From Haloplanus sp. GDY1 (GTDB lineage Archaea > Halobacteriota > Halobacteria > Halobacteriales > Haloferacaceae): a DNA stretch of 64,000 nt. The DNA lies in the NCBI RefSeq assembly GCF_023703775.1, contig NZ_CP098514.1, positions 1,860,001 through 1,924,000 on the forward strand, read 5' to 3'. Shown here one piece after another: positions 4,280-13,242 of this stretch; the stretch's first letter is position 1; each line of letters begins with the position of its first letter. The notes beneath the pieces are model-generated. The model searched no databases and was not told the DNA's origin. It saw only the letters and a program-made list of their open reading frames with translations. Both the position numbers and the translations under genes were made by a program.

Positions 4280-4852
4280 ATGCTTCCGCTCTGGCGGGTG
4301 ACGCGCAACCGCTTCGGCAAACGGCTCCACGCTCGCCTCGACGACGCGGGCGTCACGGTGAGTCGCCTCGACGAGTACCGGGCGCCCGTCCCCGCGGGCT
4401 ACGAGGCGTCGTCGCCCGACGGCGCCTCGATACGGCCGGCCGACCCCGCCGCAGTCCCCGAGTCCGTGCCGACCGACGAACTCGTCGACGGCGAGACGGC
4501 CCTCGTCGCCGCCGACGGTGGCGTCGTCGGCTACCTGTTCGTGAGCGTCGACGCGACGGTACCGGTGCCGGAACTCGGAACCGAACTGGCGTTCGACGGC
4601 GGCTACGTCCGGCGGCTCTACGTCGACCCGGACCACCGCCGCCGTGGCATCGCCACGGGCCTCGTCGACGCCGCGAAGGCCCACGCCGCCGACCGGGGGG
4701 CGGACGACGCCGCCGCGCTCGTCGCCGTCGACAATCGCCCCTCGCAGTGGACCTTCGAGGCCCAGGGCTTCAGGCGGGTGGCCCGCCACGCCTACGACCG
4801 CCTGTGGGGCCTAGAACGGCGACGACGACGCCCGCTTCCCGACGGCAACTGA
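4280..4852 (+). CDS. GNAT family N-acetyltransferase
   Basis: A 190-residue GNAT acetyltransferase. The C-terminal half holds the core: a strand ending VRRLYVDPDHRRRGIATGL, the acetyl-CoA pyrophosphate-binding R/Q-x-x-G-x-A loop, then the NxPSQWTFEAQGF segment typical of motif B. The N-terminal 60 residues are family-specific. The substrate is unknown. It is a stand-alone gene followed by an AT-rich gap, and an arginine-rich tail (ERRRRRPLP) ends the protein. Confidence 0.87.
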   Translation: MLPLWRVTRNRFGKRLHARLDDAGVTVSRLDEYRAPVPAGYEASSPDGASIRPADPAAVPESVPTDELVDGETALVAADGGVVGYLFVSVDATVPVPELGTELAFDGGYVRRLYVDPDHRRRGIATGLVDAAKAHAADRGADDAAALVAVDNRPSQWTFEAQGFRRVARHAYDRLWGLERRRRRPLPDGN

Positions 4853-4952
4853 GAGATATATACCGGGAGGTGAGTATATATTTGACTTTATATTATACAT
4901 TTGTTCCCTAAAATTTAATCCGTAGCCGCTACACCGTGGGGGTAGAGGCGCA
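4853..4952 (+). promoter_or_regulatory. AT-rich intergenic region with TATA-like element
   Basis: This 100-base gap is far more AT-rich than its surroundings. T-rich tracts just after the GNAT stop could end transcription, as archaeal terminators do. The AAAATTTAA stretch at about 4910-4918 is a plausible TATA box, predicting a start roughly ten bases before the ATG of the phosphatidyltransferase gene. Positions are inferred by eye. Confidence 0.5.
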
Positions 4953-5651
4953 ATGACGGACAAGGGGCTCTCCACGATACGGGGTGTGATCGACGGACTC
5001 GACGGGCGGGCGACCCGGATGATCGAATCCTCGCGCGACGGCAACATGGTCGCGCGGCTCGGCGGCGCCGACTGGCTGAGTCTCGGGGCGCTGTTCTGTG
5101 CCTGGGTCGGCGGCGTCCTGTTCCTGCGCGGCGAGCCGAACTGGGCGATCCTGGCGACGCTCGCGGGGTTCGGCTTCGACAAACTCGACGGGTTCTACGC
5201 GCGGTGGACCGGCGAAAGCTCCCGGTTCGGCCGGGGAATCGACTCCTTCATCGACGTGTTCGTCTACCTCGTCTCCGGCGCGTTGCTCTATCACTACACG
5301 ATGGCGCCACACCCGGTCGCGAGCGTGGTCGTCGGCTTCGTCCTCCTGATGTTCGGCGGCCTGCGGCTGGTTCGCCACACGGCCGAGGGGTTCGGCTCCG
5401 AGGACGATACGAGCTACTACGTCGGCACCACCGTCGTCCACACCAACGTGGTCGTCCTGGCGAACTACTTCCTGATCAGGCTCGTCGATCCGTGGAACGG
5501 CTGGCTCGCCGGCCTCTCGATCCTCCTCGTCTGCCCGCTGATGACCTCCCAGTATCACGCGTACAAGACCGACGTGGGACACTGGCTGGTGGCCGGGTTC
5601 GGCGCCGTCGCCGTCGCCCTCTGTCTCGCCATCGAGTTCGGCGCGATATGA
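4953..5651 (+). CDS. CDP-alcohol phosphatidyltransferase family membrane protein
   Basis: A 232-residue polytopic membrane enzyme carrying the complete family signature D76-x2-D79-G-x2-A-R-x8-G93-x3-D97-x3-D101, whose four Asp residues bind two metal ions. Such enzymes move a phosphoalcohol from CDP onto an acceptor alcohol, as in archaeal phospholipid synthesis. Which alcohol is used cannot be told. It begins a tight operon: its stop overlaps the start of the PHP gene (ATGA), and a VTT-domain membrane protein follows, which supports a lipid or envelope role. Confidence 0.9.
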   Translation: MTDKGLSTIRGVIDGLDGRATRMIESSRDGNMVARLGGADWLSLGALFCAWVGGVLFLRGEPNWAILATLAGFGFDKLDGFYARWTGESSRFGRGIDSFIDVFVYLVSGALLYHYTMAPHPVASVVVGFVLLMFGGLRLVRHTAEGFGSEDDTSYYVGTTVVHTNVVVLANYFLIRLVDPWNGWLAGLSILLVCPLMTSQYHAYKTDVGHWLVAGFGAVAVALCLAIEFGAI

Positions 5652-9299: not shown

Positions 9300-11441
9300 A
9301 TGACCGATCCGGTACCCACGACGTGTATGCGCTGTGCGGTCGGGTGTGGACTGATCCAGCGGGGCGTCGACATCGGCTACGGCGTCGACGCCGTGCGCGG
9401 GAACGCGAACCACCCCGTGAACCGCGGGATGGCGTGTTCGCGTGGCATCGAGGAGACGGCCGACCCGGAGGGGGAGTGGCTCACGCGGCCGATGGTCCGC
9501 CGTGACGGCGACCTGCGGAAGACCACGTGGGACACGGCGCTGTTCGAGGCCCAGCGTGGACTCGGGGAGGCGATGGACGTCTCCCCCGACGCCGTCGCGG
9601 TCCTCGGGAGCGGCCAGCAGACCAACGAGGCGGCCTACGCCCTCGGCAAACTCGCCCGCGGCGGCATCGGCACGCGCTACTACGACGCCAACACCACGCT
9701 CTGCATGGCGAGTGCGGTGACCGCCTACTACGACGCCTTCGGCAGCGACGCGCCGCCGCCGACCTACGAGGACATCCCCGAGGCGACCAACCACGTGGTC
9801 TGGGGGGCGAACCCCGCGGTCGCCCACCCAGTCATGTGTCGCTGGATCACGGGCAGTGCCGACGAGGGCGGCGGCGAACTGACCGTCGTCGACCCCGTGC
9901 GGACGAAGACCGCCGGGGCGGCCGACCGCCACGTGCAGGTCGACCCGGGGCGTGACCTCGAACTCGCCCGCGCGGTCCTCGCGCGGGTCGTCGAGACGGG
10001 CGGCGTCGACGAGGCGTTCGTCGCGGCGGCGACGGCCGGTTTCGACGACCTGGTCGCCGCCCTCCCCGAACCGGCCGTCGCGGCGGATCGCGCCGGCGTC
10101 CCGATGGAGGCCGTCGACCGCCTGGTCGAGACGCTGGCGGACGACACCCTGATCTACTGGGGGATGGGCGTCAACCAGAGCGTCCGAGGGACCGACACCG
10201 CGGGCGCGCTGATCGACCTCTGTCTCGCCACGGGGAACCTGGGACCCGGGAGCGGTCCCTTCTCCCTCACGGGACAGGCCAACTCGATGGGGACCCGGGT
10301 CTGCTCCTCGAAGGGGACCTGGCCCGGCCACCGCGACTTCGACGACCCCGACGAACGCGCCTTCGTCGCCGAGACGTGGGACGTCCCGGTCGACCGCCTC
10401 CCCGACGACACCGGTCCCGGACCCGTCGGCACGATCGACGCCATCGAGACCGGGCCGGTCGAGGCGGTGTACGCCGTCGCCACCAACCCCGTCGCGGGGA
10501 TGCCCGACGCCACGGACGTGGCCGACCGCCTCGACGACGCCTTCCTCGTCGTGCAGGACGCCTTCCGGACCGAGACGGTCGAGCACGCGGACGTGGTGTT
10601 GCCCGCGGCGACGTGGGGGGAGTCGAACGGCACCGCGATCAACATGGAGCGCACCGTCTCGCGGGTCCGCCCCGCGAGCGACCTGCCCCGCGGGGTGCGG
10701 ACCGACCTCGACATCGTCGCGACGCTCGGGAACGTCCTCGTCGACGGCCTGTTCGACCGGCCGGCCGACCCCGAGTCGGTGTTCGCGGAGTTCGCGGCCA
10801 TGACCGCCGGCACCGACGCCGACTGCTCGGGGATCGACTACGACCGCCTCGACGAGGAACTCGCGGTTCGCTGGCCGGCGCCGGACGCCGAGACGAGCGC
10901 GGGGTATCGATATTACGACGGCGAGGGGTCGGGAAGCGTCGGGACGGACGACGACTGGTCCTTCCCGACCCCCTCCGGGAGGGCGCGGTTCGACGCCGGC
11001 ACCGGTCGCCCCCTCCCCGAGGCGCCCGACGACGACTACCCGCTCACCCTGACGACCGCCCGCGAGGCCGACGGCTACAACACGGGGGTTCGCTCGCGTC
11101 CCTCGCCGGAGGACCCCGGCACCCTCGTCGCGCGGCTACACCCGGACACCGTCGCCGAGCGACGCGGCGCGGTCGAACCCAACGAGGCGGACGAACTCCA
11201 CGCCCGGATCGAGTCGCGACGGGGGAGCGCGATCGCGCGGATCGCCCCCGACGACGCCATCCCGCCGGGGGTGGTGTGGCTGCCGATCCACCACCCGGCG
11301 ACGAACGGCCTCACGCATCCGGCGACCGATCCGCGCTCCGACGAACCGAACCTCAAGCAGTGCGCGGTGCGACTCACGCGCCCCGAGACGGAGTCGACGA
11401 CGCCCGCCTTCGAGCGTGAGCGGCCGCCCCAGCGCCCATGA
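9300..11441 (+). CDS. nasA: Assimilatory nitrate reductase, molybdopterin oxidoreductase
   Basis: A 713-residue bis-MGD molybdoenzyme of the NapA/NasA type that reduces nitrate to nitrite in the cytoplasm for nitrogen assimilation. Cys9, Cys12, Cys16 and Cys46 form the [4Fe-4S] site. Cys135, in TTLCMASAV, is the expected Mo ligand. NQSVRGT, SLTGQANSMG, a late ESNGTAINMERT segment and a C-terminal dinucleotide-binding domain ending NLKQCAVRL follow. No Tat signal is present, which argues for an assimilatory enzyme. The ATG is preceded by GGAGG. The downstream narK start overlaps the stop (ATGA). No nitrite reductase is in view, so nitrite must be handled elsewhere. Confidence 0.9.
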   Translation: MTDPVPTTCMRCAVGCGLIQRGVDIGYGVDAVRGNANHPVNRGMACSRGIEETADPEGEWLTRPMVRRDGDLRKTTWDTALFEAQRGLGEAMDVSPDAVAVLGSGQQTNEAAYALGKLARGGIGTRYYDANTTLCMASAVTAYYDAFGSDAPPPTYEDIPEATNHVVWGANPAVAHPVMCRWITGSADEGGGELTVVDPVRTKTAGAADRHVQVDPGRDLELARAVLARVVETGGVDEAFVAAATAGFDDLVAALPEPAVAADRAGVPMEAVDRLVETLADDTLIYWGMGVNQSVRGTDTAGALIDLCLATGNLGPGSGPFSLTGQANSMGTRVCSSKGTWPGHRDFDDPDERAFVAETWDVPVDRLPDDTGPGPVGTIDAIETGPVEAVYAVATNPVAGMPDATDVADRLDDAFLVVQDAFRTETVEHADVVLPAATWGESNGTAINMERTVSRVRPASDLPRGVRTDLDIVATLGNVLVDGLFDRPADPESVFAEFAAMTAGTDADCSGIDYDRLDEELAVRWPAPDAETSAGYRYYDGEGSGSVGTDDDWSFPTPSGRARFDAGTGRPLPEAPDDDYPLTLTTAREADGYNTGVRSRPSPEDPGTLVARLHPDTVAERRGAVEPNEADELHARIESRRGSAIARIAPDDAIPPGVVWLPIHHPATNGLTHPATDPRSDEPNLKQCAVRLTRPETESTTPAFERERPPQRP

Positions 11442-12787
11442 CGAACAAGATCGAGCAACTGATCCTGGCGACGGTCGCCTTCTTCTGGGCGTTCCTGATG
11501 TGGTTCTCGACCGCCGCCTTCAGCCCCAGCATCGGCGAGTTCTACGGCCTCACCACCGGCCAGCTCGCCCTGCTCGCGAGTTCGGCCATCTGGCTCGCAC
11601 CGCCCGGGCGCGTGCTCGCGGGGTGGGCCGCCGACCGCCTCGGCGCCCACAACGTCTTCACGATCATCCTCGCGTACTCCGGCGTCGTCAGCATCCTCTC
11701 CGCGTCCGCCTCGGGGATCGGCTTTCTCTCCGACTTCGAGGTCCTGTTCGTCGAGCGCATGGTCGTCGCCTCCGCGGGCATCAGCTTCGTCGTCGGCATC
11801 CAGCACGTCGCCCAGTGGTTCGACGAACACGAGATCGGGACCGCCGAGGGGCTGTACGCCGGCACCGGCAACGTCGGCGCCGGCGTCGGGGCGCTCCTCC
11901 TGCCCCGGCTGTACGGCACCAACTTCTCGGACGCGTTCCTGCACCTGGGGATCGTCGCGCTGGCCATCGCCGTCGTCTACAAGTGGCGGGGCCAGCCCGC
12001 GAAGGACCGGGCGACCGCCGAGGCGGCGAAGGCCAACACCTCGCTGGGCGACACGCTGTTCGTGTGGACGCGCTTCGCCGCCATCGCCCTGATGCTCGGC
12101 TACGCCATGTCCTTCGGCCTCGAAATCGCGATGAACTCCTGGCTGCCGAGCTACTACGCCGAGGGCTTCGACGGCGCCATCGCCGACCTGGGCTTTACCG
12201 GCACCGCGGCCATCCAGACCGCCGCCGGCACCTTCGCGGCCGTCCAGTCGTTCAACGCCTCGCTGTTCCGTCCCTTCTCGGGGTACATGTCCGACCTCTG
12301 GCAGCGCAAGGGGTGGACGCCCTACCCGATGCTCTCGACGACGCAGGAGTACTCGCCGCGCGTCCACTGGCTGATGACCGCACTCATCCTCATCACGCTC
12401 GCGATGGTCGCGCTGACGCTCGTCGGTCTGGCGGGGCTGCTCCCGGCCTCCGTCGTCGTCCTCGCGATCTTCGGGATCACCGTCAGCTTCGGCACCGGCG
12501 GCGTCTTCGCCATCGTGCCCGTCCTGTTCGAGGACCGTCCCGGAACGGCCTCGGGCTTCATCGGCGGCATCTCCACCTCCGGCGGCATCGTCTACCCCCT
12601 CGTCTACGGCTACGTCCCGAACATCCACGTGGGCTACGCCGTCGTCGCGCTCGTCTTCTTCGTCCCGTTCATGCTGTTTTACGTCTGGGCGATGCGCTAC
12701 GAGGAGGACCCCCGGGAACACGGCATCGGCTCCGCCAGGCGCTGGCTTGGCAGCAAGAGCCCGACGGCCACGGGAGGTGACGACTGA
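11438..12787 (+). CDS. NarK-type MFS nitrate/nitrite transporter
   Basis: A 449-residue major facilitator protein with about twelve hydrophobic helices. The motif GRVLAGWAADRLGAHN between helices 2 and 3 is the MFS signature, and GNVGAGVGALLLPRLYG and FGTGGVFAIVPVLF resemble the Gly-rich nitrate signature regions of NarK/NasA-type porters. Its start overlaps the nasA stop, so uptake and reduction are co-translated. A tiny membrane protein gene follows with a one-base overlap. Nitrate import is the likely role, nitrite export less so. Confidence 0.86.
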   Translation: MTNKIEQLILATVAFFWAFLMWFSTAAFSPSIGEFYGLTTGQLALLASSAIWLAPPGRVLAGWAADRLGAHNVFTIILAYSGVVSILSASASGIGFLSDFEVLFVERMVVASAGISFVVGIQHVAQWFDEHEIGTAEGLYAGTGNVGAGVGALLLPRLYGTNFSDAFLHLGIVALAIAVVYKWRGQPAKDRATAEAAKANTSLGDTLFVWTRFAAIALMLGYAMSFGLEIAMNSWLPSYYAEGFDGAIADLGFTGTAAIQTAAGTFAAVQSFNASLFRPFSGYMSDLWQRKGWTPYPMLSTTQEYSPRVHWLMTALILITLAMVALTLVGLAGLLPASVVVLAIFGITVSFGTGGVFAIVPVLFEDRPGTASGFIGGISTSGGIVYPLVYGYVPNIHVGYAVVALVFFVPFMLFYVWAMRYEEDPREHGIGSARRWLGSKSPTATGGDD

Positions 12788-12927
12788 TGAGCGAGGCCGA
12801 CGCCGAGTACGACGACTGGTACCGGTGGGGGAAGGCCGTCCTCTATCTGGAGATGGTGATCGCCGTCCTCGTGACGGTCTTTTCGCTCTATCTCGCCTTC
12901 AACGGGCAGGCGGCGGGCATCGCCTGA
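12787..12927 (+). CDS. 46-residue single-pass membrane protein of the nas operon
   Basis: A small frame starting at the ATG that shares one base with the narK stop (TGATG). The protein has an acidic, aromatic N-terminus (SEADAEYDDWYRWGK), one hydrophobic helix at about residues 17-39 and a short tail. Its codon use fits the neighbours, and the coupling to narK argues it is real. It is likely an accessory subunit of the transporter or a small membrane regulator, but no family is recognised. Its stop abuts the convergent MTH1187-type gene, forming the palindrome TGATCA. Confidence 0.7.
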   Translation: MSEADAEYDDWYRWGKAVLYLEMVIAVLVTVFSLYLAFNGQAAGIA

Positions 12928-13242
12928 TCACTCCCGGTCGCCACGGGCCGGCCGCCCCAGCGCGTCCTCGACGCCCGCGACTTTCGCCGCCGCAGGGGCG
13001 TCGCTCGCCCGCTTGTCGTCGATCTTCAGGACCGTACTCACCCGGTCGGCCTCGACGGCCCGGTGCGCGGCCTCACAGGCGGCAAAGAGCGTGCCCACGT
13101 CGTCGCTCTCGATCACCGTCCCCATCGGGTTCGTCTCGTAGCTCACGTCGAAGTCCTCCAACGCGGCCACCGCGTCGGCCACGTCGTCGGCCATGCTCCC
13201 TTCCCGTACCGGTGCGACGCTCAGCAGTGCGACGACGGTCAT
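12928..13242 (-). CDS. MTH1187-type thiamine-binding protein
   Basis: A 104-residue protein of the MTH1187/YkoF-like (former DUF77) family: small ferredoxin-like domains that form tetramers and in some members bind thiamine. The typical start VVALLSVAPVREGSM and the ETNPMGTVIESDD segment are present. It lacks membrane segments and is cytoplasmic. It stands alone and converges on the nas operon with no bases between the stops. A role in thiamine handling is inferred from the family. Confidence 0.86.
   Translation of the reverse strand: MTVVALLSVAPVREGSMADDVADAVAALEDFDVSYETNPMGTVIESDDVGTLFAACEAAHRAVEADRVSTVLKIDDKRASDAPAAAKVAGVEDALGRPARGDRE

Follow-up and report, generated by a model that had tools for sequence, protein, structure and literature searches.

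A 46-residue single-helix membrane protein encoded directly after narK is a candidate subunit of one branch of haloarchaeal NarK-like transporters

What does the short open reading frame that follows the probable nitrate transporter gene of Haloplanus sp. GDY1 encode, and does its product serve the transporter? The frame was found in a window of 64,000 nucleotides (the whole stretch of DNA that was analyzed), where an initial annotation had placed it at the end of the nitrate assimilation operon and had proposed for its product the role of a small partner or regulator of the transporter. The features on which the argument depends are given below, with coordinates counted from the first nucleotide of the window.

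9300..11441, + strand: nasA, assimilatory nitrate reductase, which opens the unit (NCBIfam NF041323, 1206 bits, cut-off 1000)
11438..12787, + strand: narK-like MFS transporter gene, 449 aa, C-terminal GGDD (MFS_1 PF07690; TIGR00886 below cut-off)
12773..12780, + strand: Shine-Dalgarno-like GGAGGTGA within the final codons of narK, 6 nt upstream of the small-gene ATG (read in the sequence)
12787..12927, + strand: small gene for a 46-aa single-helix membrane protein, candidate transporter subunit (conservation, codon selection, helix model)
12838..12900, + strand: transmembrane codons of the small gene, residues 18-38 (VLYLEMVIAVLVTVFSLYLAF) (hydropathy, conserved face)
12928..13242, - strand: thiamine-binding-protein family gene, a convergent neighbor outside the unit (PF01910, 70.9 bits, cut-off 24.9)

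The nasA stop and the narK start overlap by 4 bases (ATGA). The narK stop codon TGA (12785-12787) and the ATG of the small gene (12787-12789) have a single base in common (TGATG), and the coordinates place it at 12787, confirming the shared base that had been noticed at the outset. At the other end, the stop codon of the small gene (12925-12927) adjoins that of the convergent thiamine-binding-protein gene with 0 bases between them. Because the nitrite/sulfite reductase genes of the source genome are located at least about 349 kb from nasA (G000:C1:2220418-2221647 and 2311313-2312548), the local unit consists of nasA, narK, and the small gene. The description of the small gene as the end of the nitrate assimilation operon holds for this unit, but not for every relative: a molybdenum cofactor guanylyltransferase (MobA-type) gene comes next, on the 3' side, in 2/4 plasmid records.

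In these four records (L073-L076), the narK-small gene pair resides on large plasmids, a location that may partly account for its patchy spread over families. A ferredoxin-nitrite reductase gene adjoins nasA, or is separated from it by one small gene, in three of the four. Other small genes were seen at L073:2321-2458 (Halobaculum sp. XH14; 45 aa) and L075:4490-4630 (Halarchaeum sp. CBA1220; 46 aa). Each bridges the nitrite reductase gene and the gene that comes next (nasA or narK), overlapping the former at its end and the latter at its start; both display no hydrophobic stretch by eye and are annotated as hypothetical.

The protein encoded immediately upstream of the small gene belongs to the major facilitator superfamily (MFS_1, PF07690; 83.2 bits, cut-off 33.4). 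It also matched the NarK model TIGR00886 across residues 8-383 (149.9 bits, E 9.8e-44); as this score falls under the model's cut-off of 311.7, we label the protein NarK-like. Nitrate is its presumed substrate because of the nasA operon context. Transporters of the NarK type have been described as monomeric (PMC2483277).

The 46-codon frame at 12787-12927 is a real, conserved protein gene. When 392 genomes of the order were searched with the protein, 20 of them, the source genome included, gave strong matches (E 1.5e-26 to 1.6e-12). The match after these had an E value of 0.008; altogether, 116/392 genomes gave a match at E <= 1, and the scores of the remaining 96 (E 0.008-1) suggest chance similarity. 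A small-protein profile run against 170 genomes of the family gave 12 matches, including four additional intact copies and one relic. Together with one plasmid record (L075), the 20 copies from the order and the four from the family make up 25 distinct intact loci. The initial annotation had staked its proposal on conservation of the frame downstream of narK in related species, and there it is indeed conserved. Family members range from 42 to 70 residues in length, and 14 alignment positions are identical in all 20 sequences.

Codon-level comparisons, like the helix-face and distance analyses below, used 24 of the 25 loci, with L008 left out. Over 276 pairs, mean pN divided by mean pS came to 0.35 in frame, as opposed to 1.41 and 1.67 when the frame was shifted; the median dN/dS was 0.23 (267 pairs with dS defined). 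Third codon positions were 2.3 to 2.5 times more variable than the other two, and the shifted frames held stops in 18/24 and 3/24 loci. The codons of the small gene are under purifying selection, and the retention of the frame across genera together with this codon pattern is beyond chance.

A pattern scan of an 84,980-species collection returned nine loci, all of which we take to lie in haloarchaeal genera; the scan needed exact back-translated patterns and missed some members known from the protein search. Four matches outside the order, among 294 genomes of the phylum, were rejected: they spanned 14-18 residues (E 0.005-0.007), two had an internal stop, and all were taken as chance. Likewise rejected were apparent fusions to narK, since the lengths of 494 and 530 aa run from stop to stop, and narK there has its own stop and lies in another frame.

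The encoded protein has one hydrophobic stretch. The top 21-residue hydropathy window covers residues 18-38 (mean Kyte-Doolittle value of 2.29), and AlphaFold, given 10 homologues, modeled a single long helix from residue 3 to residue 40, with a pLDDT of at least 90 at 21/46 residues. Both the single clean transmembrane helix and the acidic, aromatic N terminus that had been read from the sequence were recovered. R13 and K16, just ahead of the helix, suggest that the N terminus is inside; this is a weak indication because the N terminus is acidic. In the 20-sequence alignment, it is the membrane helix of the protein that is conserved, rather than a soluble tail. The conservation moment of the helix at 100 degrees (residues 19-40) was equaled by 0.5% of 10,000 shuffles, with 100 degrees the top of the scanned angles and 120 degrees near it (6.96 versus 6.1). 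The conserved face comprises L19, E22, M23, A26, T30, S33, L34, A37, and G40, none of them more than 61 degrees from a common direction, the pattern expected of a helix that packs on another membrane protein. Counting against this reading, the invariant Y20 and F32 and the nearly invariant L28 and F38 lie off the face.

Existing family models gave the protein no name. No Pfam or NCBIfam cut-off was reached by any of the 20 members, and no solved structure matched the small-protein profile at E <= 10. PsbN was considered and rejected: the Pfam model scored 12.4 bits for the source protein and at most 14.9 among the 20 members (cut-off 25), and NCBIfam NF009650 reached at most 16.6 bits (E 0.0051; cut-off 70). 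This subthreshold likeness was seen in 12/20 members, falls within the membrane helix (residues 24-38), and is probably due to composition. In three of the four plasmid records, the relatives are annotated as "hypothetical protein"; the fourth record, whose gene table is incomplete, has no entry. The gene can thus be called unlisted, as it was initially, with respect to that one record and not to the other three.

The small gene is linked to a single branch of NarK. Matches to the source NarK occur in 163/392 genomes of the order (E <= 1e-60), and the 20 best of them (E <= 1e-207, 73-100% identity) come from exactly the 20 genomes that have the small gene; the 21st shows 49% identity (E 1e-98). 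In every intact locus examined (25/25), the small gene lies directly 3' of narK. In a NarK tree, the 25 proteins accompanied by the small gene and the 11 that lack it fell on opposite sides of one branch with a support of 100/100. The small-protein profile matched 26/26 loci of the small-gene NarK branch, relic included, at E <= 6e-20, and its best match to any frame of 51 loci with other NarKs had an E value of only 1.8. One of the 51 loci comes from a genome of the genus, and the others represent 50 of the 143 genomes of the order whose only NarKs are of other kinds; the remaining 93 were covered by the whole-genome search for the small protein. No strong match lacking an adjoining narK was found in the 392 order or 170 family genomes. 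Distances between small proteins correlate with those between the corresponding NarKs (r = 0.66; 0/5000 permutations as high; 24 loci), which shows co-inheritance rather than contact. Over the same 24 loci, the small protein diverges more than NarK does (mean between-locus distance 0.37 versus 0.22), a point against the subunit reading.

Within the genus, all 12 genomes are consistent with this pairing. Five have an intact small gene and a NarK of the same branch, five have neither NarK (E <= 1e-20) nor the small gene, and one, a genome that is 79% complete, has a NarK of a different kind and lacks the small gene. The last, G423, holds a relic at about positions 4600-4970 of locus L136 (G423:C1:3417000-3429000). 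The syntenic place lacks nasA and residues 1-373 of narK, and a stop at the invariant W11 interrupts the small frame. This shared decay, a single case, suggests that without NarK the small protein is useless.

The junction between the two genes is likewise uniform in kind, with 19 one-base overlaps, five abutting pairs (TGAATG), and one four-base overlap among the 25 intact loci. In all of these loci, the C terminus of NarK reads GGDD (once GGDDW), versus 0/50 other NarKs. The codons for this end contain the motif GG[AG]GG[TC]GA, which is present in 25/25 loci with the small gene versus 2/50 without it, the pattern having been framed after the loci were inspected. For comparison, we took AGGAGGTGAT to be the Shine-Dalgarno sequence. 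The exact match to it runs to 8-10 bases in 15/25 small-gene loci, including the source locus, and to 4-6 bases in the other 10; loci with other NarKs match at 3-8 bases, mostly 3-4. The narK ends of other NarKs were measured in 50 of the 51 loci, given that L082 has no narK end; L059, where the narK frame contains a stop, was counted. A separate reading of the other-NarK loci from the order covered 49/50, L082 again excepted.

Work on other gene pairs gives this arrangement a possible meaning. In Haloferax volcanii and Escherichia coli, 13 of 14 overlapping pairs tested were strictly coupled in translation (PMC6728339). Pairs encoding subunits of a complex account for 45.2% of closely spaced versus 5.6% of widely spaced gene pairs in H. 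volcanii, with 54.8% of the close pairs falling outside the complex class (PMC10666635). A study cited in PMC6728339 concerns, by its title, the lack of use of Shine-Dalgarno motifs at 5' leaders in H. volcanii. If such motifs are apparently unused there, the site at the end of narK is likelier to act in restarting after termination.

We therefore propose, with a probability of about 0.7, that the small protein is a co-translated, single-helix subunit of one haloarchaeal branch of NarK-like transporters and is needed for their stability or activity. Ribosomes that terminate on narK would restart at the overlapping ATG of the small gene, aided by the Shine-Dalgarno-like site in the end of narK. 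The small protein would in this way be produced beside NarK at a set ratio, as the gene arrangement and the Haloferax data on other gene pairs suggest. Its helix would insert into the membrane, probably with the N terminus inside, and may pack on NarK through the conserved face (L19 through G40). Most likely, it would be required for the folding, stability, or transport activity of NarK, like small helices elsewhere. Binding to NarK, the positive sense of the role, and nitrate as the substrate are what we infer here. An AlphaFold model of a read-through chain of narK and the small gene had a mean pLDDT of 45.5 and a pTM of 0.46 from an alignment of 16 rows, whose lack of depth probably explains the low confidence; the chain came from three Halarchaeum loci with both frames in phase, the intervening TGA being translated as glycine (NCBI table 25). 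Between the two roles offered by the initial annotation, that of a partner gains from branch co-occurrence, gene overlap, decay in the relic, and the helix face, and that of a regulator loses ground.

Such a regulator, inhibiting or gating NarK upon a change in nitrogen status in the way that MgtS acts on PitA or SgrT on PtsG, seems unlikely to us. Switches of the MgtS type are usually under control of their own, whereas the small gene overlaps or abuts narK in 25/25 intact loci, so that separate control is not apparent. Constant co-translation and the lack of a strong free-standing copy fit a constitutive subunit or stabilizer better than a switch. Small proteins that inhibit transporters do exist, as cataloged in PMC10710835, and it is from them that the regulator reading draws its plausibility.

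Quite improbable is a job of the small protein's own, in nitrogen metabolism or membrane physiology, with mere co-inheritance in the operon. Every member is tied to a single NarK branch, and the linkage may thus have one origin; with effectively one origin, the linkage, the GGDD end, and the motif could all have been co-inherited rather than kept by function. However, no strong copy without narK was found in the 392 order and 170 family genomes, and in the lone relic (G423) the small gene is broken along with narK.

Still less probable is a helper of NasA, that is, a membrane tether that positions either the nitrate reductase, a cytoplasmic enzyme, or its ferredoxin beside the transporter. It is true that nasA is present in 20/20 order genomes with the small gene and lies upstream of narK at the source locus. 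The small gene is nevertheless absent from 157 of the 177 genomes with nasA (among 392 of the order), and its conserved part is the membrane helix rather than a soluble tail. Furthermore, the pair of narK and small gene is intact in Halarchaeum where nasA does not adjoin narK. In the 12-kb stretch of the Halarchaeum plasmid record (L075), no nasA is annotated or was found by search, and a search of L068 also found none; in L069 and L071, the end of nasA is >2 kb upstream of narK. The many nasA genomes without the small gene (157/177) and the Halarchaeum arrangement point to NarK rather than NasA as the partner.

Finally, it is hardly credible that the frame is spurious and kept only through the 3' end of narK or an RNA element: a hairpin that resembles a terminator and has a T-rich tail does lie within the small gene (12862-12878, + strand; one found versus 0.1 expected) and could be chance, but the frame begins at the last base of narK, so that overlap offers no explanation for its conservation, and synonymous change is far above amino-acid change, with most variation at third codon positions.

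If the proposed subunit role is correct, transport assays, heterologous expression, and structural work on the small-gene NarK branch must include the small gene. Proteins currently called hypothetical, or absent from annotation, would gain a supported hypothesis of function. A natural experiment is moreover at hand in genomes that have NasA in common but whose NarK-like carriers differ in having or lacking the extra helix.

Among known systems, MetS, part of the methionine importer MetP of Corynebacterium glutamicum, is a one-helix small subunit whose gene lies beside that of a secondary transporter; MetP belongs to the NSS family, not to MFS. An NCBIfam scan of the 20 members gave no MetS-type match. 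In being a short protein with one transmembrane helix, the small protein is AcrZ-like in manner, and AcrZ on AcrB is likewise a transmembrane helix on a larger transporter (PMC7267776). WatS1 (55 aa) and MgtS (31 aa) are also very short proteins that act on transporters (PMC10710835). Unlike in these three cases, the partner here is an MFS protein and the small gene overlaps the transporter gene. The passages on small proteins in PMC10710835 name no MFS partner, and "NarK" is absent from its main text. More generally, we found no open-license paper whose title or opening abstract lines describe a small NarK partner. The nearest operon is nasABC of Haloferax mediterranei, the same reductase-transporter unit with nasA and the NarK-like nasB; it is set apart by its description, in which the MobA-like nasC follows nasB and a small membrane gene goes unmentioned in the passages on this unit (PMC8143581, PMC2483277).

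NRT2/NAR2 stands with AcrZ and the small proteins of PMC10710835 among the closest functional likenesses, even though NAR2 is presumably a much larger protein than the 46-aa small protein. Comparison via family models revealed no kinship to NAR2/NRT3, no Pfam family exceeding its cut-off in the 20 members. In plants and algae, the nitrate transporter NRT2 requires its partner NAR2 for function and for membrane localization (PMC4232926). We consider the chances about even that the haloarchaeal pair is an obligate two-subunit transporter, in which an MFS carrier is joined by a co-translated separate helix as an independent archaeal counterpart of NRT2/NAR2, and, as far as our searches show, the first case in which such a small subunit is proposed for a NarK-like protein. 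If so, two-component nitrate transport of the plant kind gains an independent parallel in the archaea.
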